Shown: in pieces, positions 21,457 through 33,420 of the stretch
Position numbering within the stretch: position 1 is the first letter of the stretch
How the letters are laid out: each line of letters begins with the position of its first letter
Notes under the pieces: generated by a model
Told to the model about the DNA's origin: nothing
Database searches by the model: none
Seen by the model: the letters and a program-made list of their open reading frames with translations, nothing else
DNA from: Flavobacteriales bacterium
GTDB taxonomy: Bacteria > Bacteroidota > Bacteroidia > Flavobacteriales_F > PHOS-HE28
Assembly: GCA_026129465.1 (NCBI GenBank)
Contig: JAHCIA010000001.1
Coordinates: 2,055,964 to 2,119,963, forward strand
DNA: 64,000 bases
Reading direction: 5' to 3'
Made by a program: the position numbers and the translations under genes

Positions 21457-22389
21457 ATGACCACCCGCGCCGCCATCATCGATCTCGGCACCAACACCTT
21501 CAAGCTGCTGGTGTGCGAACCACATGCTGGCAAGCTGCGTGTGCTGCACCGCGAGGAGGTGCCAGTGTACCTGGGTCGCGGTGGCATCGAGCAGGGCGTG
21601 ATCGTTCCGGAAGCGTTCGCACGCGGGATCGCCGCCTTGCACGCGCTACGTGAAAGGGCCACCATCCTGGGCGCATCCGATGTGCGGGGCTTCGGCACCT
21701 CCGCGCTGCGCAATGCCAGCAACGGCGCGGAGTTCACACGTCACGCGCTGGAAGTGACGGGCATCGCCATCGGGATCGTACCCGGCGAGGAGGAAGCCGC
21801 ACTGATCATCGCGGGCGTTCGGCAGGCGGTGCCCTTCGGCGCGCGCCCGGCCCTGGTGATGGACATCGGCGGCGGCAGCACCGAGTTCATCCTCGCCACC
21901 GAAAAGGCGATCATCTGGAAACGCAGTTTCGAACTGGGTGTGACACGCCTGCGGGAACGCATCCCCAGCAGCGACCCGATGACGCTGGAGGAGGAAAGCC
22001 GCATCGCCGCGCATCTGGACGACCGCCTCGAGCCCCTCTACGCCATGATCGAACGCCACGAGCCGCACCTGCTCATCGGCAGTGCCGGAAGCTTCGACAC
22101 GCTCGCGGCGATCGTCTCCGCCGCGAACAACGACCCGATCGCCGCGGAGGACACCTCACTGGAATTCGATGCGGACAGCTTCGCGGAAATGAAGGACCGC
22201 CTGTTGCGCATGCCACGTGCGGAACGTCTTCAAGTGCCCGGCCTGCCGGAGCATCGCGTGGACACCATTCCCTATGCCCTGGTGCAGATCGACCGCGTGC
22301 TGCTGGCCGGCCGCATCCGCGAACTGGCGTGGAGCCGTTTTGCGCTGAAGGAAGGGGCGGCGGCGAGGATGCTGTTCGGTGTGCGCTAA
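21457..22389 (+). CDS. Ppx/GppA-family phosphatase
   Basis: The 310-residue protein has the actin-like ATPase fold of exopolyphosphatase/guanosine pentaphosphatase enzymes: phosphate-1 loop IDLGTNTFKLLVCE, DVRGFGTSALRNASNG and phosphate-2 loop VMDIGGGSTEFI. It has the short two-domain form without the C-terminal HD-like extension of enterobacterial Ppx. It may hydrolyse polyphosphate or pppGpp; the two cannot be separated from the sequence. The start at MTTRAAIIDLG is well supported. The stop overlaps that of the convergent delta-60 gene. Confidence 0.9.
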   Translation: MTTRAAIIDLGTNTFKLLVCEPHAGKLRVLHREEVPVYLGRGGIEQGVIVPEAFARGIAALHALRERATILGASDVRGFGTSALRNASNGAEFTRHALEVTGIAIGIVPGEEEAALIIAGVRQAVPFGARPALVMDIGGGSTEFILATEKAIIWKRSFELGVTRLRERIPSSDPMTLEEESRIAAHLDDRLEPLYAMIERHEPHLLIGSAGSFDTLAAIVSAANNDPIAAEDTSLEFDADSFAEMKDRLLRMPRAERLQVPGLPEHRVDTIPYALVQIDRVLLAGRIRELAWSRFALKEGAAARMLFGVR

Positions 22390-25356
22390 GGCAGCTGCTC
22401 CACCTTGACGTAGGTCGGTATGCCACCCACGGTCTCCAGGATGATATCCCGGTCGTTGTCCACACCCACATACTCGATGGTACCGTCCAGGTTCACGTCC
22501 TCGGTGGCGTATACACCCTGCACGGTGTTCGCCGGGGTACTGCCGCCCACGGCCACCAGGATGGCATCCCGGTCGTTGGCGGCGCCGACGTACTTCACAC
22601 GCCCGTCGAAGTTGGCGTCACCGGGCCAAAGCACCATGTCGCCGCCCACCTCGTTCCGGGCCTCCACACCGAAAGTGGGAACGAACGGGTCGGTGAAGTC
22701 GATGGTGACGGGCGCAGGCGAGAGCGCCACTGGTGCGGCGGTCATCACACCAAGGTGGTTGCGGTGGCGGAGGGCCACGTGGTACGCTGCGGACGGAAGG
22801 TCGAAGGCCAATTCCAATAAACCTTCCGAGGATACCACATCGCCATCGCGCTGCACCAGACCTGCGCGGGTGGCGAGCACGTTGCCCGGGGTGGCAGCTG
22901 CGCGCAATTCCACCACCACCCAGTCCACGATGGCGTCCGGTCCCGTGGTGATCAACAGGGCGGGATCGATGGTCTCACCGCCACCGTCACCAGCATGTGG
23001 ATAGCCCAGCGCGGTGTATGGTTCGGCCAGCGGGAGCAGATCCTGCACACGCAGATCATCGCGCAACAGTTCCAAGGACCCCTCGTACGCGCTGCCGAGC
23101 AACACCTTGGCCGAAACCAGCAAGGGTGGCTCGGGTTCACTGGCATTGAGGCGCACCACCCGGTTGCGGCCCACACCGTTCAACGCGATCAGATCACCAG
23201 CAACGAGCAGGCTGCCGTCGGACAGCACCACCAATTCCTCCACATCCCCAGTGGCCCCATTGCCGCTATTGAAGGATGCGTCCAAGCTGCCGTCCGGGAA
23301 CAGCCGAACGAGATCGTTCTGCGGTCCGCTTCCAGTGGTGGAGAAGGTGCCGCCCACCAGGAAGCGCCCCTCGTTGTCCATGGCCAGGGCACGCACTTCG
23401 CTGAACGGCGCCAACGGGGATGGGACGAACGATGGATCGAGGCTCCCGTTGGCGTTGAGCATGGCGAATCCGTTGCGTGCCACGCCGTTGAACTGGGTGA
23501 ACGCACCCCCCACCAGGATGCGACCATCGGGCAGGGGCAGAATGGTCCGCACCAAGGCATTGGCGCCACTCACTGGCGCGAAGGTGTTGTCCAGTGTCCC
23601 GTCGGCATTGAGGCGGGCGATGCGGCCCCTGGGGATACCGTTCACCTGCAGGAAGATGCCACCCACGAGGATCTTCCCATCCGCTTGAACGGCGACTGTC
23701 AGGACGAAATTCGCGAACGCGGCGGCACAGAAGGCGGGGTCGAGCGTGCCATCGGGCAGGAGCCTCGCGAAGTTGGACCGGGGTTGGCCATGTACCGTGG
23801 TGAACATGCCGCCGATCAAAATGCCATCGTCCGGCTGCACCACGATCGCGTCCAGGATGCCGTTGACGGCGCCCAAGGCGGGGGAAGGTGGGGTCGAACG
23901 CGCCATCGGGGAGTATGCGCGCGAAATGGGCCGCGCCAGCTGCACCTCCGTACCCGGTGAACATGCCCCCGACCAGGATCCGCCCATCGGACTGCACACC
24001 CATGCAAAGCACCGGGTTGTAGGACGATTGGTCACCCGCTGCGAAACCGGGATCGAATGAGGGGTCCGCCAGGCCATTGGGCAACAGCCGCGTGATGCGG
24101 TTGTGCGCTGTCTCGTTGTAGCGCAGCAGATCGCCGGCGATCAGGATGCGGCCGTCCGGCTGCACCACCATACTCTGTACGCGCCGGTCGGCCCCGGATC
24201 CCGGATGGAAGGTGAGGTCGAGTACACCATCCGTATCCAGGCGAGCGGCGTTGCGGCGCGTGATGCCGTTGTAGCGGGCGAACTCGCCTGCGATGATGAA
24301 ACCGCCATCGGGCAGTTCCAGGATCTGGTGGACGTTGTCATTCGTCGTAGCCACGGGGAACACCGGATCGAAAGCGCCATTGGGCAACAGACGGACCAGG
24401 TGCTTGCGTTCCTGCCCGTCGAATTGCAGGAATGTGCCCGAGATCCAGATGCGCTCCTGAAGGTCCACGTGCAGCATGCGCACACTGGCAGAGGCACCTG
24501 ACCCCGGATCGAACGTATCATCCAGCAGACCATCGGTCGTGAGGCGCGCCACCCTTCCCTGTGGCACACCGTCCACCGCGGTGAAATCGCCTCCGATGAC
24601 GATCCTGCCCTGCGCGTCCAACGCCAGATCGACGACCCTGCCTCCTGGGCCATTGGCAATGGAGTTGGACGGATCCAAGGCTCCATCCGGCATCAACCGC
24701 ATAAGATGTGGCGGTCCCGGAGCGGGACCGATCTGGTTGCCGCCGACCATGACGCGGCCATCGGATAGCAGCTGCAGGCATTCCACTTGGGCCAGCCCTT
24801 GTGTGGGCGGGACGAAGCTGTTGTCCAAGCTGCCATTCGGGTCCAGACGCACCAGTCCGGGGCGATAGGTCCCGTTGAAGAAGTCGAAGAAACCACCGAC
24901 CAGCACCTTCCCGTCGGGTTGAAGCGCCACGGTCCTTGTGCTGCTGTCGAACCCAGAACCCGTGCTGAAGGTGGCATCGTGGCTGCCATCGCTGTTGAAC
25001 CGCGCCACGCGGTTGAACGTGGTGAAGGTCCCTACCGCGATCAGCTTGCCGTCCGGCTGCAAGGCCAGATCGTACACGGCGTTGTTCATCGTCGGTGTGT
25101 TGAAAGTGGGGTCCACCGCGCCATTGGGCAATAGACGCACGATCCTGCTGCGGACGAGACCATTGTACGCCGTTATGGTACCGCCCAGATAGATGCGGCC
25201 ATCGGGCATGCGTGTGGCGCAATACACGAATCCAATGGCGCCATCGCCATGTCCGTGGCCCACATCGCTCGCATTGAACGTGGGATCCACCTGGACCGGC
25301 TGGGCGTGACAGAAGACAGCGCACAGACCCCAGAAAAGCAAAATGGATGAACGCAT
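22386..25356 (-). pseudogene. Delta-60 repeat exported protein with dockerin-like C-terminus, interrupted by a frameshift
   Basis: The N-terminal part begins MRSSILLFWGLCAVFCHAQP, a signal peptide, and runs through delta-60 repeats (LPDGRVMVGGN, LDNSFVPPTQG and similar) up to DGAFDPTF. The repeats then continue in another frame from ALGAVNGILDAIVVQPDDG. The switch is in a run of five G at 23880-23884, and removing one base restores one frame across both parts. The C-terminal 230 residues include ATRAGLVQRDGDVV and HVALRHRNHLGVMTA, then two calcium-binding-like repeats, GDANFDGRVKYVGAANDRDA and EDVNLDGTIEYVGVDNDRDI, resembling dockerin modules. It may be a real pseudogene or a homopolymer sequencing error. 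Confidence 0.8.
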
Positions 25357-25483
25357 GCGGATCGCCTGGATCAAGGTGGATAGGGAGCAACGGATACCGT
25401 CAAATATCACCATTCCTCGAATTGCGGAAACGATCCACAGGTAGAACCGGCAAGGTCCGGCTCGCGAGTACTGGTTGAAGACC

Positions 25484-27922: not shown

Positions 27923-28369
27923 ATGGACTTCCTGATCGAAATTCACGACTACTTCTACGGCAAGATGGGTGTGGCCTTCTACTACCTCCTGATGTTCCTG
28001 GGTGCCATCGCGGCGCTGGCCCAGTGGAGGTTGTATGAGAAGGCCGGCCAGCCGGGCTACACGGCCTTGGTCCCCGTCCTGAACATCATCGTCTTCCTGC
28101 GCATCGTGGGCCGCCCGGCCAAGGATGCTTGGCTGATGCTGATCCCCATCTACGGCCAGCTCTACTTCATCCCCAAGGTGTGGATCGAAGTGTGCCAGAG
28201 CTTCGGCAAGCGTACCACGGTGGACTATGTGTTGGTCATCCTGCTCAACGGCCTGTACATCCTGAACCTGGCCATGAGTGATGACACGCGCTACATGGGT
28301 CCGGTGCATGGCCAGCAGCAGTTGAAGCCGGCCAAGCCGCTACGCCCCCGCCCCAGCCTGGCCGCCTGA
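27923..28369 (+). CDS. DUF5684-type membrane protein
   Basis: The 148-residue protein has four hydrophobic segments, including FYYLLMFLGAIAALAQWRLY, the conserved core KAGQPGYTALVPVLNIIVFL and WLMLIPIYGQLYFIPKVWIEV. The KAGxPGW/Y..LVPxxN pattern is typical of the DUF5684 family, often found near or fused to signal peptidase I in Bacteroidota. Its function is not known. The 187-base gap upstream has no gene; it contains the direct-repeat-like CACTAGGACACAAGGAAAC, similar in style to other intergenic repeats here. A clear terminator follows. Confidence 0.7.
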   Translation: MDFLIEIHDYFYGKMGVAFYYLLMFLGAIAALAQWRLYEKAGQPGYTALVPVLNIIVFLRIVGRPAKDAWLMLIPIYGQLYFIPKVWIEVCQSFGKRTTVDYVLVILLNGLYILNLAMSDDTRYMGPVHGQQQLKPAKPLRPRPSLAA

Positions 28370-28395
28370 GCCGGAACATCGACAAGCACAACAGG

Positions 28396-28422
28396 GAAGC
28401 CGCCTTCGGGCGGCTTCTTCTT
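28396..28422 (+). terminator. Rho-independent terminator after the DUF5684 gene
   Basis: GAAGCCGCC, a TTCG tetraloop and GGCGGCTTC make a perfect 9-bp stem followed by TTCTT, 26 bases after the stop codon. Confidence 0.85.
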
Positions 28423-28440
28423 GGGCATAAGCCGCCAGCC

Positions 28441-28450
28441 TACCTTTCGC
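28441..28450 (+). promoter_or_regulatory. Putative -7 promoter element of the DUF6090 array
   Basis: TACCTTTCGC ends nine bases before the first DUF6090 ATG, directly after the terminator of the preceding gene. A TTG lies about 17 bases upstream within the terminator arm. Confidence 0.45.
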
Positions 28451-28459
28451 GGCACCTCC

Positions 28460-29194
28460 ATGAAGCTCTTCAACAAGGTCCGGCAGCGCTTGCTCGATGA
28501 AGGCCGCCTCAAGCGCTACCTGGTCTACGCGGCGGGCGAGATCGTCCTGGTGGTGGTCGGCATCCTCATCGCCTTGCAACTGAATGCCTGGAAGTCCGAT
28601 GTGAAGGACCGGAGCCTGGAACAGACCTACCTCTGGAACCTGCGGGACGACCTGGTCCTTCAGCAGGAGATCATCGAAGACCAGATCGCCCACGAAGCAA
28701 GCAAGGTGGTGCTGGCCGACTCCGCCATGGCCTGCTTCATGAGCGGCTGCCCGCTGGATGTCCTCGAGGACTTGTTGACCGGTGCCGGCAAACTTTACCA
28801 GCGCAAGACCTTCATCGCCAATCAACCCACCTTCAACGACCTGGTCTCCTCGGGGAACATGGCGCTCCTGCGGGACGTGAAGGTCAAGGCCGAGCTGATG
28901 CGCTATCATCAGGAACTGGAGCTGCAAGCCACCGTGATCAACACGAACAACCGCCTCCTCATCGACCAGCAGTTCGGCCAGAGCATGATGGGGAACGCGC
29001 TTGGCTTCGTCCTGAACGAGCATGGTGATGTGGACAACACCCAGCGCTTGAATGGCGCCCAGCGCTATTCGCTGCGCACGCTGTTGCGCATGCGCAAGCG
29101 GATCTCGGAACTGCATCGCGACCGCTGCATGGCGTTGCAGGAGCACACTGGGACGATGATAGCCTTGCTCGATATGTCGATCAAACAAGATTGA
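28460..29194 (+). CDS. DUF6090 family membrane-anchored protein (copy 1)
   Basis: The 244-residue protein starts with a basic stretch (MKLFNKVRQRLLDEGRLKRY) followed by one transmembrane helix, AAGEIVLVVVGILIALQLNAW, the hallmark of the DUF6090 family common in Bacteroidota. The rest is a predominantly helical domain facing the periplasm, by the positive-inside rule. Function is unknown. Its whole reading frame and the 20-base spacer behind it are repeated exactly as the next gene. It is the first gene of a three-gene array. Confidence 0.85.
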   Translation: MKLFNKVRQRLLDEGRLKRYLVYAAGEIVLVVVGILIALQLNAWKSDVKDRSLEQTYLWNLRDDLVLQQEIIEDQIAHEASKVVLADSAMACFMSGCPLDVLEDLLTGAGKLYQRKTFIANQPTFNDLVSSGNMALLRDVKVKAELMRYHQELELQATVINTNNRLLIDQQFGQSMMGNALGFVLNEHGDVDNTQRLNGAQRYSLRTLLRMRKRISELHRDRCMALQEHTGTMIALLDMSIKQD

Positions 29195-29214
29195 CAAGGT
29201 CATTGGATCGGCCC

Positions 29215-29949
29215 ATGAAGCTCTTCAACAAGGTCCGGCAGCGCTTGCTCGATGAAGGCCGCCTCAAGCGCTACCTGGTCTACGCGGCGGGCGAGATCGT
29301 CCTGGTGGTGGTCGGCATCCTCATCGCCTTGCAACTGAATGCCTGGAAGTCCGATGTGAAGGACCGGAGCCTGGAACAGACCTACCTCTGGAACCTGCGG
29401 GACGACCTGGTCCTTCAGCAGGAGATCATCGAAGACCAGATCGCCCACGAAGCAAGCAAGGTGGTGCTGGCCGACTCCGCCATGGCCTGCTTCATGAGCG
29501 GCTGCCCGCTGGATGTCCTCGAGGACTTGTTGACCGGTGCCGGCAAACTTTACCAGCGCAAGACCTTCATCGCCAATCAACCCACCTTCAACGACCTGGT
29601 CTCCTCGGGGAACATGGCGCTCCTGCGGGACGTGAAGGTCAAGGCCGAGCTGATGCGCTATCATCAGGAACTGGAGCTGCAAGCCACCGTGATCAACACG
29701 AACAACCGCCTCCTCATCGACCAGCAGTTCGGCCAGAGCATGATGGGGAACGCGCTTGGCTTCGTCCTGAACGAGCATGGTGATGTGGACAACACCCAGC
29801 GCTTGAATGGCGCCCAGCGCTATTCGCTGCGCACGCTGTTGCGCATGCGCAAGCGGATCTCGGAACTGCATCGCGACCGCTGCATGGCGTTGCAGGAGCA
29901 CACTGGGACGATGATAGCCTTGCTCGATATGTCGATCAAACAAGATTGA
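29215..29949 (+). CDS. DUF6090 family membrane-anchored protein (copy 2, identical to copy 1)
   Basis: This gene encodes the same 244 residues as the preceding gene, with no difference seen at the DNA level. Same layout: basic N-terminus, one transmembrane helix at about residues 23-43 and a helical extracytoplasmic domain. Because two identical copies are adjacent, the duplication is very recent or an assembly artefact. The ATG follows the previous stop by 20 bases; the in-frame start eight codons upstream would overlap that stop. Confidence 0.85.
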   Translation: MKLFNKVRQRLLDEGRLKRYLVYAAGEIVLVVVGILIALQLNAWKSDVKDRSLEQTYLWNLRDDLVLQQEIIEDQIAHEASKVVLADSAMACFMSGCPLDVLEDLLTGAGKLYQRKTFIANQPTFNDLVSSGNMALLRDVKVKAELMRYHQELELQATVINTNNRLLIDQQFGQSMMGNALGFVLNEHGDVDNTQRLNGAQRYSLRTLLRMRKRISELHRDRCMALQEHTGTMIALLDMSIKQD

Positions 29950-29969
29950 CAAGGTCATTGGATCGGCCC

Positions 29970-30698
29970 ATGAAGCTCTTCAACAAGGTCCGGCAGCGCT
30001 TGCTCGATGAGGGCCGCCTCAAGCGCTATTTGGTCTACGCGGCGGGCGAGATCGTCCTGGTGGTGGTCGGCATCCTCATCGCTTTGCAGCTCAACGCGTG
30101 GAAAGCGGACCAACGGGACCGCCGATCGGAAATGGCCCATCTGGAGAACCTTCGGGAAGACCTGCACTTGCAGCTGGAGGTCATATACGCCCAGATGGTG
30201 CACGACACCACCATGACCTTGAAAGCGGATTCCGCGATGGCCTTCTTTTCCGGCGGCATGAGCTTGGAGGACCTGGAGCGAAGGGTCTACGGCAGCCGCT
30301 CGTTGGGTTGGCGCAAGACCTTCGTGGCCAGCGATGCCACCTTCAAGGTGCTGCTTTCCACCGGCGGCATGAACCTGATCGGCGATCCCCGGCTGCGCAC
30401 CGACCTGATGCGCTACCACCAGCAACTGGAATACACCACCCAGGTGATCAACACGAACAACCGGCTGATCGATGATCTGTTCAGCCTGAACGCGGCCAGC
30501 AGCGCCCCGAGCTTCTCGCGCGATGCTCAGGGGCGGCTGGAGAACGATGCTGAACTGAGCGGCAAGGATCGGTATCGCCTCTACGAAAGCATCGAGCAGC
30601 GTCGTGTCCTCAGCCAGATCGCACTGGGCATCTGCGAGAAACAGCGGATCGCGACGAAGGAGATGATCGCCCGGCTGGACAAGGAGATCGATCCCTGA
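29970..30698 (+). CDS. DUF6090 family membrane-anchored protein (divergent paralogue)
   Basis: This 242-residue paralogue keeps the same N-terminus and transmembrane helix (GEIVLVVVGILIALQLNAW) and then diverges, with recognisable matches such as WRKTFVASDATFKVLLSTGGMNL against KTFIANQPTFNDLVSSGNMAL, and MRYHQQLEYTTQVINTNNRL. It is the likely original partner of copy 1 before the duplication. The stop lies four bases from the end of the convergent alaS gene. Confidence 0.85.
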   Translation: MKLFNKVRQRLLDEGRLKRYLVYAAGEIVLVVVGILIALQLNAWKADQRDRRSEMAHLENLREDLHLQLEVIYAQMVHDTTMTLKADSAMAFFSGGMSLEDLERRVYGSRSLGWRKTFVASDATFKVLLSTGGMNLIGDPRLRTDLMRYHQQLEYTTQVINTNNRLIDDLFSLNAASSAPSFSRDAQGRLENDAELSGKDRYRLYESIEQRRVLSQIALGICEKQRIATKEMIARLDKEIDP

Positions 30699-30702
30699 TC
30701 GC

Positions 30703-33309
30703 TCACCCCAGCAGCTCCACCGCCTTGTTCAGCGCCTCGGCCATGCCACCGGGTTCCTTTCCACCGGCCGTGGCGAAGTCGGGTTGGCCACCGCCACCGC
30801 CTTTGATCAAGGGACCGAGCTGCTTGATGAGCTCGCCGGCTTTCAGGCCCGTGGCTTCCATGAACGCCTTGCCGAGGGACACGGCGAGCAGCGGCTTGCC
30901 TTCGATCACCGAGCCGGCGATAAAGGCAAGATCGGGCTGCTGCTCGCGCAGTTGGTAGCCCAGGTCCTTCAGGCTTTGGGCATCGAGGTCCAAGCGTTCC
31001 ACCAGGAACCTGGCGCCTTTGCCGTTGGCCTTGGCGTTGGCAGGCAATGAAGCCGCCAGACCCTTCACCTTCTCCTTGGCGAACTTCTCCAACTCCTTGC
31101 CCATGGCGGCGTGTTGCTCCACGAGCTTCTCGACGGCCTGCACAATGTCGGCCGGGTTCTTCAGCAGGGTATTGAGGGCATCCAACTTGGCCAGCTTCTC
31201 GTCGATCATGCGCTCGGCCTCCACGCTGGTGACGGCCTCGATGCGGCGGATACCAGCGGCCAAGGCGCTCTCACTCACGATACGGAAGGGACCGATGACA
31301 CCGGTGCGTGGCACATGCGTTCCTCCGCACAGTTCAACACTGGGGCCGAACTTCACCACGCGCACGTTGTCGCCGTACTTCTCGCCGAAGAGCGCCATGG
31401 CGCCCATGGCCTTCGCCTCCGCGATGGGCATGTTGCGCTTGTCCTCGAACACGATGTCGTCGGTGATCATGGCGTTCACCTCGCGCTCGATGATGGCCAG
31501 CTCCTCGGGCGTCACCTTGGCGAAGTGGCTGATGTCGAAGCGCAGGCGGTCGGGCGCCACGAGCGAGCCCTTCTGCTCCACATGGGTGCCCAGGTGCTTG
31601 CGCAGGGCGTGGTGCAGCAGGTGCGTGGCGGTGTGGTTGCGCGCGGTGAGGCCGCGGCGCTGCGTGTTCACCTGCGCGGTGAGCGGCTGGGTCACGTCCT
31701 TCGGAAGCTCCTTCGTGAAGTGTACGATCAGCTGGTTCTCGCGCTTGGTGTCGATCACTTCGACCTGGTCCGCGCCCTGGATGAGCCAGCCCTGGTCGCC
31801 CACCTGGCCGCCGCCTTCCGCGTAGAAGGGCGTGCGGTCGAGCACGAGCTGGAACTGGTCGCCGCCCTTGCCGGAGACCTTGCGGTAGCGCAGGATGCGG
31901 GCCTCCGTGCTCAGTTCGTCGTAGCCGATGAAGGCGGTCTCGCCCTTGCCAAGCTCCACCCAATCACCCGTAGTGACGGCCGTGGCGGCGCGGCTGCGGT
32001 CCTTCTGCTTCTTCAGCTCGGCTTCGAAGCCCGCCATGTCCACATCGCGACCCTGCTCGCGGGCGATGAGCTGGGTGAGGTCGATGGGGAAGCCATAGGT
32101 GTCGAACAACTCGAAGGCGCGGTCGCCGGGCAATGTGCCTTTGCTTTCGGCGAGCGCTTGTTCGATGCGCTTCGTTCCCTGCTCCAAGGTGCGCAGAAAG
32201 GCTTTCTCCTCTTCACCCATCACACTCTCGGTCAGGGCTTGCTGCTTCCTCAACTCAGGGAATTGATCGCCCATCTGCTCGGCGAGCGCGGCAACAAGCT
32301 TGTGCATGAACGGCTCATTGAAGCCCAGGAAGCTGTAGCCATACCGAACGGCACGGCGCAGGATGCGGCGGATGACGTAGCCTGCCCCCGTATTGCTGGG
32401 CAACTGACCGTCGGCGATGGCGAAGGCGATGGCCCGCAGGTGATCGGCGCAGACGCGCATGGCGATGTCGGCCTTCCCGTCCCTGCCATACGCCTTCCCA
32501 CTCTGCTTCGCGAGAGCCTGGATCAGCGGCTGGAACACATCGGTGTCGTAGTTGCTGCGCTTGCCCTGCAGCACCATGCACAGGCGCTCGAAGCCCATGC
32601 CGGTGTCCACGTGCCGGGCGGGCAGGGTGTGCAGCGAGCCGTCGGCCTTGCGCTCGAACTGCATGAACACGTTGTTCCAGATCTCGATCACCTGCGGGTG
32701 GTCGCGGTTCACCAGTTCGCGGCCGGGCTTTGCGGCCTTCTCCTCCGCCGTGCGCACATCCACGTGGATCTCCGTGCAGGGGCCGCATGGGCCGGTATCG
32801 CCCATCTCCCAGAAGTTGTCCTTGCGGCTGAAGGGCAGGATGCGCTCGGCGGGCAGATATTTCAACCAGAGCTGGCGGGTCTCCTCATCGGCCTCCAGTC
32901 CATCCTTGGCGTCACCGCCGAAGTAGGTGACGTAGATGCTGTCCGTGTCGATCTTGTATTCGTCCACCAGCAACTCCCAGGCCCACTGGATGGCTTCGGC
33001 CTTGAAGTAGTCGCCGAAGCTCCAGTTGCCGAGCATCTCGAACATGGTGTGGTGGTAGGTGTCGATGCCCACCTCCTCCAGATCGTTGTGCTTGCCCGAG
33101 ACGCGCAGGCACTTCTGCGTGTCGGCGATGCGCTTGTGCTTCGCTTCGCGGTTGCCCAGGAACAGGTCCTTGAACTGGTTCATGCCCGCATTGGTGAACA
33201 TGAGCGTGGGGTCGTCCTTGATCACCATGGGGGCGCTGGGCACGATGGTGTGGCCGCGTTGGGCGAAATGGTCGAGGAACTTCTGGCGGATCTGTCGACT
33301 GGTCAGCAT
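30703..33309 (-). CDS. alaS: Alanyl-tRNA synthetase
   Basis: The 868-residue class II synthetase charges tRNA-Ala. Catalytic-domain motifs are intact (FTNAGMNQFKDLFLG; GDTGPCGPCTEIHVD). The editing domain has the zinc ligands HTATHLLHHAL and CGGTH, and the C-terminal DHHA1 domain ends the protein (LLAVSLGKAFMEATGLKAGELI, GGGGGQPDFATAGG). Length matches the family. The start MLTSRQIRQKFLDHF is the conserved one; an upstream extension of 20 codons is excluded by the promoter-like element inside it. Confidence 0.98.
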   Translation of the reverse strand: MLTSRQIRQKFLDHFAQRGHTIVPSAPMVIKDDPTLMFTNAGMNQFKDLFLGNREAKHKRIADTQKCLRVSGKHNDLEEVGIDTYHHTMFEMLGNWSFGDYFKAEAIQWAWELLVDEYKIDTDSIYVTYFGGDAKDGLEADEETRQLWLKYLPAERILPFSRKDNFWEMGDTGPCGPCTEIHVDVRTAEEKAAKPGRELVNRDHPQVIEIWNNVFMQFERKADGSLHTLPARHVDTGMGFERLCMVLQGKRSNYDTDVFQPLIQALAKQSGKAYGRDGKADIAMRVCADHLRAIAFAIADGQLPSNTGAGYVIRRILRRAVRYGYSFLGFNEPFMHKLVAALAEQMGDQFPELRKQQALTESVMGEEEKAFLRTLEQGTKRIEQALAESKGTLPGDRAFELFDTYGFPIDLTQLIAREQGRDVDMAGFEAELKKQKDRSRAATAVTTGDWVELGKGETAFIGYDELSTEARILRYRKVSGKGGDQFQLVLDRTPFYAEGGGQVGDQGWLIQGADQVEVIDTKRENQLIVHFTKELPKDVTQPLTAQVNTQRRGLTARNHTATHLLHHALRKHLGTHVEQKGSLVAPDRLRFDISHFAKVTPEELAIIEREVNAMITDDIVFEDKRNMPIAEAKAMGAMALFGEKYGDNVRVVKFGPSVELCGGTHVPRTGVIGPFRIVSESALAAGIRRIEAVTSVEAERMIDEKLAKLDALNTLLKNPADIVQAVEKLVEQHAAMGKELEKFAKEKVKGLAASLPANAKANGKGARFLVERLDLDAQSLKDLGYQLREQQPDLAFIAGSVIEGKPLLAVSLGKAFMEATGLKAGELIKQLGPLIKGGGGGQPDFATAGGKEPGGMAEALNKAVELLG

Positions 33310-33333
33310 GACGAAAGGCCCCTGTGAGGCGGC

Positions 33334-33342
33334 GCAAAAGTA
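33334..33342 (-). promoter_or_regulatory. Putative -7 promoter element of alaS
   Basis: TACTTTTGC on the minus strand ends 24 bases before the alaS ATG. Confidence 0.45.
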
Positions 33343-33420
33343 CCGGATGGCCCTGCCCATGATCCACATTCTTTAACAGGTAGCGCGCTGGATCATCCTA
33401 CCCCGGCCGGACATGGCGGC

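Follow-up and report, generated by a model that had tools for sequence, protein, structure and literature searches.

The closest described counterparts of the arrays analyzed here are strings of immunity genes: esaG in S. aureus and tipC in Streptococcus are tandem T7SS immunity paralogues in which genes are added, lost, and rearranged by recombination via short blocks of highly similar DNA (Garrett et al. 2022, PMC9484751). By analogy, these strings appear to be the nearest precedent for arrays of DUF6090 genes, which likewise consist of non-identical paralogues (A1-A2-B and c1-c6 in the genome under study; about 16 genes in G117, the longest tandem run) and likewise contain short DNA blocks that are far more alike than the rest, with breakpoints located at these blocks. 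A block at the 5' end, as in the DUF6090 genes, is also present in tipC (PMC9484751). The two cases nevertheless differ: esaG and tipC are Firmicute genes whose cognate toxin adjoins the string and for which the evidence is at the strain level (PMC9484751), whereas the block of the DUF6090 genes encodes a membrane anchor and our data are between species only. The Pfam entry of the family, PF19578, has no function, structure, or paper attached, and our search found no literature naming DUF6090.

The window, a stretch of 64,000 nucleotides from a Flavobacteriales bacterium, corresponds to positions 2,055,964-2,119,963 of a 3.86-Mb contig in a genome of 3.88 Mb that is 99.7% complete. Its forward strand carries gene A1 (28460..29194, 244 aa), gene A2 (29215..29949, 244 aa with the same sequence as A1), and gene B (29970..30698, 242 aa), all of which match PF19578, as the initial annotation had proposed, with scores of 31.7 bits for A and 35.2 bits for B against a curated Pfam cut-off of 23.5. 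The upstream flank is formed by a single-copy DUF5684 gene in conserved synteny (27923..28369, + strand) and the downstream flank by the convergent alaS (30703..33369, − strand). A terminator-like hairpin (28394..28419, + strand) follows the DUF5684 gene and precedes the array: folding of the RNA of 28385-28430 yielded −23.8 kcal/mol (z −4.7), and a comparison of spacers revealed similar hairpins at the corresponding position in relatives whose site is empty. Ten bases before the first ATG, TACCTTTCG (28441..28449, + strand) is a possible −7-like element of a putative array promoter, read by eye from the Bacteroidota −7 consensus; similar strings occur in both relatives with a single gene at this site. 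Upstream in the window, a gene for a long delta-60-repeat-like protein (22386-25413, − strand) is present as two overlapping frames, split at a run of five C (23873-23895) by either a real frameshift or a one-base consensus error. Taken as a whole, our best explanation of the locus, in which a small tandem DUF6090 array between the convergent conserved neighbors DUF5684 and alaS duplicated gene A through an anchor block that recombination keeps alike among its members, is moderately probable.

A self-match of the DNA shows that 28458-29255 equals 29213-30010 over 798 bp at an offset of 755 with zero mismatches, which confirms the exact 755-bp tandem duplication that had been noticed initially. 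The match is composed of one 755-bp unit, present in two identical copies on the + strand (28458..29212 and 29213..29967), and a 43-bp arm (28458..28500, + strand), which also equals the 5' end of gene B and is hence identical in A1, A2, and B. Each unit comprises gene A and a 20-bp downstream spacer. The initial description of genes and spacers as identical holds for A1 and A2 and for their downstream spacers (29195-29214 and 29950-29969, respectively), but not for the DNA upstream of A1, which is unrelated to the spacers except for the two bases preceding the ATG. Together with these two bases, the 41 bases from the ATG constitute the unbroken identity between A and B. A DNA search of the whole genome recovered exactly two full copies of the unit, both at this locus. 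As no other full tandem duplication of at least 200 bp was found in the 877 kb of this genome that were read in blocks, where the tandem units otherwise seen were of 61 bp and 90 bp only, the duplication is not due to chance. A 494-bp exact direct repeat at an offset of 495, also in this genome (L180 9174-10162; C1:3309174), misses a full tandem copy by a single base.

The A-A-B geometry with a 5' segment common to A and B fits the unequal crossing-over that had been suggested: The 5' end of B would have recombined with the 5' end of A on the sister chromosome within the 43 identical bases, such that the common 5' block of neighboring genes would serve as the homology arm. Because A2 has the base of A at the first position at which A and B differ, the crossover is confined to 28458-28500, the sole possible site of a duplicating crossover or slippage. 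The geometry is, however, not specific to crossing-over: Slippage over the copies of the 43-bp repeat could have copied A to yield the same order, and an assembler loop would give the same sequence. An insertion sequence or transposon was rejected as the cause since the 43-bp arm accounts for the junction; the ends of the unit carry no inverted repeats and no transposase was seen among the neighboring genes read. In the case of an assembly artefact, which we consider unlikely, the true order would be A-B and the assembler would have traversed twice a loop created by the 43-bp repeat. The unit indeed starts exactly at the common 43-bp block, as a graph loop would give, but this position is equally expected from true recombination. 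An artefact would also agree with the lack of any other identical pair among the 177 same-locus pairs of DUF6090 genes in the loci read, in which the next closest bodies after A1/A2 are 58% identical, and with the imperfect consensus suggested by the split frame at the five-C run. It is opposed by the position of the locus inside a contig of 3.86 Mb in a nearly complete genome, which points to long reads spanning 1.5 kb, and by the 877 kb devoid of comparable duplications. On account of this long contig and the absence of other duplications, the second copy of A is likely to reflect a real event. The identity over 755 bp means that this event is recent, as had been claimed, or else an artefact of assembly. 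Exact tandem gene copies are common in bacteria, and the duplication, which is present in the sequence, is ordinary in kind and probably recent. The view of DUF6090 as a family that repeatedly amplifies in this way and responds to selection on dosage is not supported, A1 and A2 being the sole identical pair among the 177.

We compared the same site in a collection that contains one genome per species. In most members of the genus, the DUF5684 gene is bordered directly by a response regulator gene and by alaS, and no DUF6090 gene is present; the gap between DUF5684 and alaS at these empty sites measures 68-137 bp and often contains a terminator-like hairpin. One DUF6090 gene, an ortholog of B, occupies the syntenic site in G019 (L041) and G278 (L102), so that the copy number varies between 0, 1, and 3 among species, with three copies in the source genome. 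According to a tree of three flanking proteins, the nearest relatives G185 and G016 have no DUF6090 gene at the site, whereas G019 and G278, which are more distant, carry a single gene. This pattern implies that the site acquired or lost its gene on more than one occasion and that the gene is dispensable. Short remnants of the 3' end of alaS are located after the B ortholog in G278 (L102) and beside DUF5684 in G016 (L115); as alaS itself is absent there, the downstream region was rearranged in both genomes.

Within the array, A and B combine a constant anchor with a diverged body. The anchor module, codons 1-40 encoding a cytoplasmic helix and a transmembrane helix (28460..28579 in A1 and 29970..30089 in B, both on the + strand), is identical at 115/120 positions, i.e., differs at five (96% DNA identity), while 274 of the following 606 positions differ (55% identity), much as the initial annotation had it in stating that the third gene shares the first 41 bases and the anchor segment and then diverges. 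In comparison with the two B orthologs (G019 and G278), bases found only in A number 0 in codons 1-40 and 167 thereafter. The maximum chi-square test, which was run on variable sites and allows for rate differences along the gene, places a break at nt 102: A equals B at 23/26 variable sites before and at 69/345 sites after the break (0/2000 permutations), and on third positions only at 9/11 before and 39/147 after (10/2000 permutations). The agreement of A with B at fourfold sites is 20/21 in the anchor and 18/38 in the body (p 0.0002), the latter being lower than the agreement of B with its own orthologs in the body (44/72 and 46/75). With 5/120 differences, the anchor of A is nearer to that of B than the anchor of B is to those of its orthologs (17 and 20/120; Fisher p 0.012 and 0.002), although the body of A is far more diverged. 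In an AU test with the 117-nt anchor alone, the exclusion of A from B and its orthologs was not significant (p 0.061). When 395 genomes of the class were searched with the body of A, the best match was B itself (43%), followed by a gene of G387 (35%), and no donor for a horizontal transfer of A was found among these genomes.

The simplest reading of these figures is that A and B recombined at their 5' ends before the last duplication, and the 5' similarity itself looks like the outcome of such an exchange. Recombination of this kind would keep the first 35-40 codons alike in DNA among neighbors while the bundle-coding parts diverge. Alternatively, there may have been no homogenization at all: A sister relationship of A and B is not rejected by the body tree (AU test, p 0.288), and A might hence be a local copy of B that arose recently and evolves fast, with an anchor that stayed alike through constraint on protein and codon choice. 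Such constraint would agree with an anchor protein that is nearly invariant in all genera and with the observation that cross-type anchor pairs, too, share more codons than expected; it is difficult to reconcile with a fourfold agreement that is nearly complete in the anchor and falls below that of B and its orthologs in the body, with a breakpoint that is present on third positions alone, and with a further gene, c3, that has the wrong anchor for its body. We regard the absence of homogenization as rather unlikely and infer that the anchor DNA is kept alike by recombination and not by synonymous constraint.

The gene c3 belongs to a second array of six DUF6090 genes, c1-c6, located at 1,124,353-1,128,861 of the same contig. 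In c1-c4, the first 41 codons are 90-96% identical in DNA and the bodies 40-44%, which equals the background. The body of c3 groups with c5, c6, and a gene of G017 (41-45% aa identity), its anchor with c1, c2, and c4, with the break falling at nt 96-114 both overall and on third positions; as judged from these groupings, c3 is a mosaic gene. In the AU test with the anchor alone, c3 together with its body relatives gave p 0.226, which is not significant. A fifth, orphan anchor start of 14 codons between c1 and c2 (L042 8077-8118, − strand) is the relic of a lost array gene. At the level of such comparisons, the switch between anchor and body is stronger in the c1-c6 array than in that of the window. 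The same array harbors the 13-mer GTCCCTACGGGAC, of which four copies exist genome-wide, each immediately preceding c2 or c3 (L042 7095-8062; C1:1127094-1128061). Single copies precede DUF6090 genes in G019 and G010, and G185, which has no DUF6090 gene, contains 22 copies in clusters, one of them beside a Y1_Tnp (IS200-like) gene. The 13-mer is a REP/RAYT-like element, which in the source genome is restricted to DUF6090 genes.

How far the likeness of the anchors extends at the DNA level depends on the distance considered. Same-locus pairs with unrelated bodies within the genus share 76% of the synonymous codons of the anchor versus 46% expected, and pairs from different genomes of the genus share 67%; between genera, the sharing amounts to 33% versus 29% expected. 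Outside this genus, g68 and g112 show little or no synonymous excess, and large arrays from two genera (L088, L090, L092) have kept the protein motif but mostly not the synonymous sites. A universal constraint on the DNA of the anchor was rejected because of this small excess between genera, and the DNA-level likeness hence belongs to the genus and to single arrays. Even between gene types in one genome, however, anchor codons are more alike than the codon usage of the bodies predicts, from which it follows that some synonymous constraint is likely and that the expected value is too low. Three DUF6090 genes (L090 3968-5041, L090 7972-8784, and L095 6442-7296) carry the in-frame inserts LPTGKVG, LPAGKAG, and PTAGTNGRAG inside their anchors, which are conserved otherwise, perhaps a small intragenic repeat element.

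At the protein level, all 72 aligned relatives match PF19578 with E < 0.01; the Pfam match begins with the GE of the transmembrane helix, so that the conserved cytoplasmic helix falls outside it. Across 75 genes, the mean net charge of the N-terminus is +5.5, and a single hydrophobic helix comes next; none of the 75 has another hydrophobic 19-mer (mean > 1.6), and the protein ends after the bundle. Based on the positive-inside rule and this single hydrophobic helix, we infer that DUF6090 proteins are single-pass inner-membrane proteins with an N-in/C-out topology, which most likely places the variable four-helix bundle in the periplasm. The order along the protein would thus be a positively charged cytoplasmic helix, a near-invariant transmembrane helix with a buried glutamate, and the variable bundle. 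The consensus of the transmembrane helix is YAxGEIxLVxIGILIALQxNxW, in which G, E, G, I, and A are invariant in the 72-member alignment, the invariance of GE being partly by construction since the gene set was collected via this pattern (six hits lacked or varied it). The AlphaFold2 model of A is all-helical (pLDDT 91, pTM 0.82), and that of c1, whose body is unrelated in sequence to A, has the same helical topology (pLDDT 91.5): In both models, a long helix is predicted to run from the membrane into a helical bundle. A search for solved relatives by sequence found none, and Foldseek returned no E below 0.001 for the model, which says little for an all-helical model. Four-helix-bundle periplasmic sensor domains (NarQ, KinB, MCP ligand-binding) align to residues 34-244 of the A model with VIA-align Z of 8-9.4, which is within the range of any helical bundle, the best matches being designed bundles (13.8). 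Unlike MCP and histidine kinase receptors, moreover, DUF6090 proteins have neither a second transmembrane helix nor a cytoplasmic output domain.

Because the neighbors differ between arrays (cytochrome c, desaturase-like, pirin-like, hybrid two-component sensors), no function can be assigned by guilt by association, and a shared partner gene beside the arrays was rejected. In G142 (L090 9546-12920), a Reg_prop/HisKA sensor gene breaks up the array, which is flanked by further propeller sensors, a possible hint at a signaling link in the genus of G142. A defense system was likewise rejected, as PADLOC gave no match to DUF6090 proteins; no NCBIfam entry for them was found. Coming back to the esaG and tipC strings, each DUF6090 protein might protect against a different competitor toxin that acts in the periplasm, with copies gained and lost by recombination. 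Non-identical paralogues with common homology blocks and a patchy presence with losses are what esaG and tipC display as well (PMC9484751), yet no toxin or secretion gene was recognized by eye beside the arrays read, where unknown toxins are possible, as many as 16 genes follow one another with no toxin gene among them, it is the anchor that is conserved, and the PADLOC search was negative, so that we deem immunity strings improbable. We tentatively favor a different picture, in which the constant anchor would dock all members on one common membrane partner while exchangeable bundles bind different periplasmic ligands or proteins. DUF6090 arrays may then represent a recombination-driven repertoire, although this is put forward with reserve: a constant 5' anchor cassette for one partner combined with exchanged and diversified periplasmic bundles. 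If so, copying and cassette exchange would provide new receptor or protection specificities, and A1 and A2 would have been caught just after copying.

While the copying itself is ordinary, a gene family with a constant anchor and a variable outer part is undescribed. The main value of the locus thus lies in the pattern, in which one end of the gene is near-constant, the other is varied, and the boundary coincides with the end of the transmembrane helix. This pattern offers a handle on the family: It directs the search toward a common membrane partner of the anchor, toward the ligands of the variable bundles, and toward the turnover of the arrays in populations.
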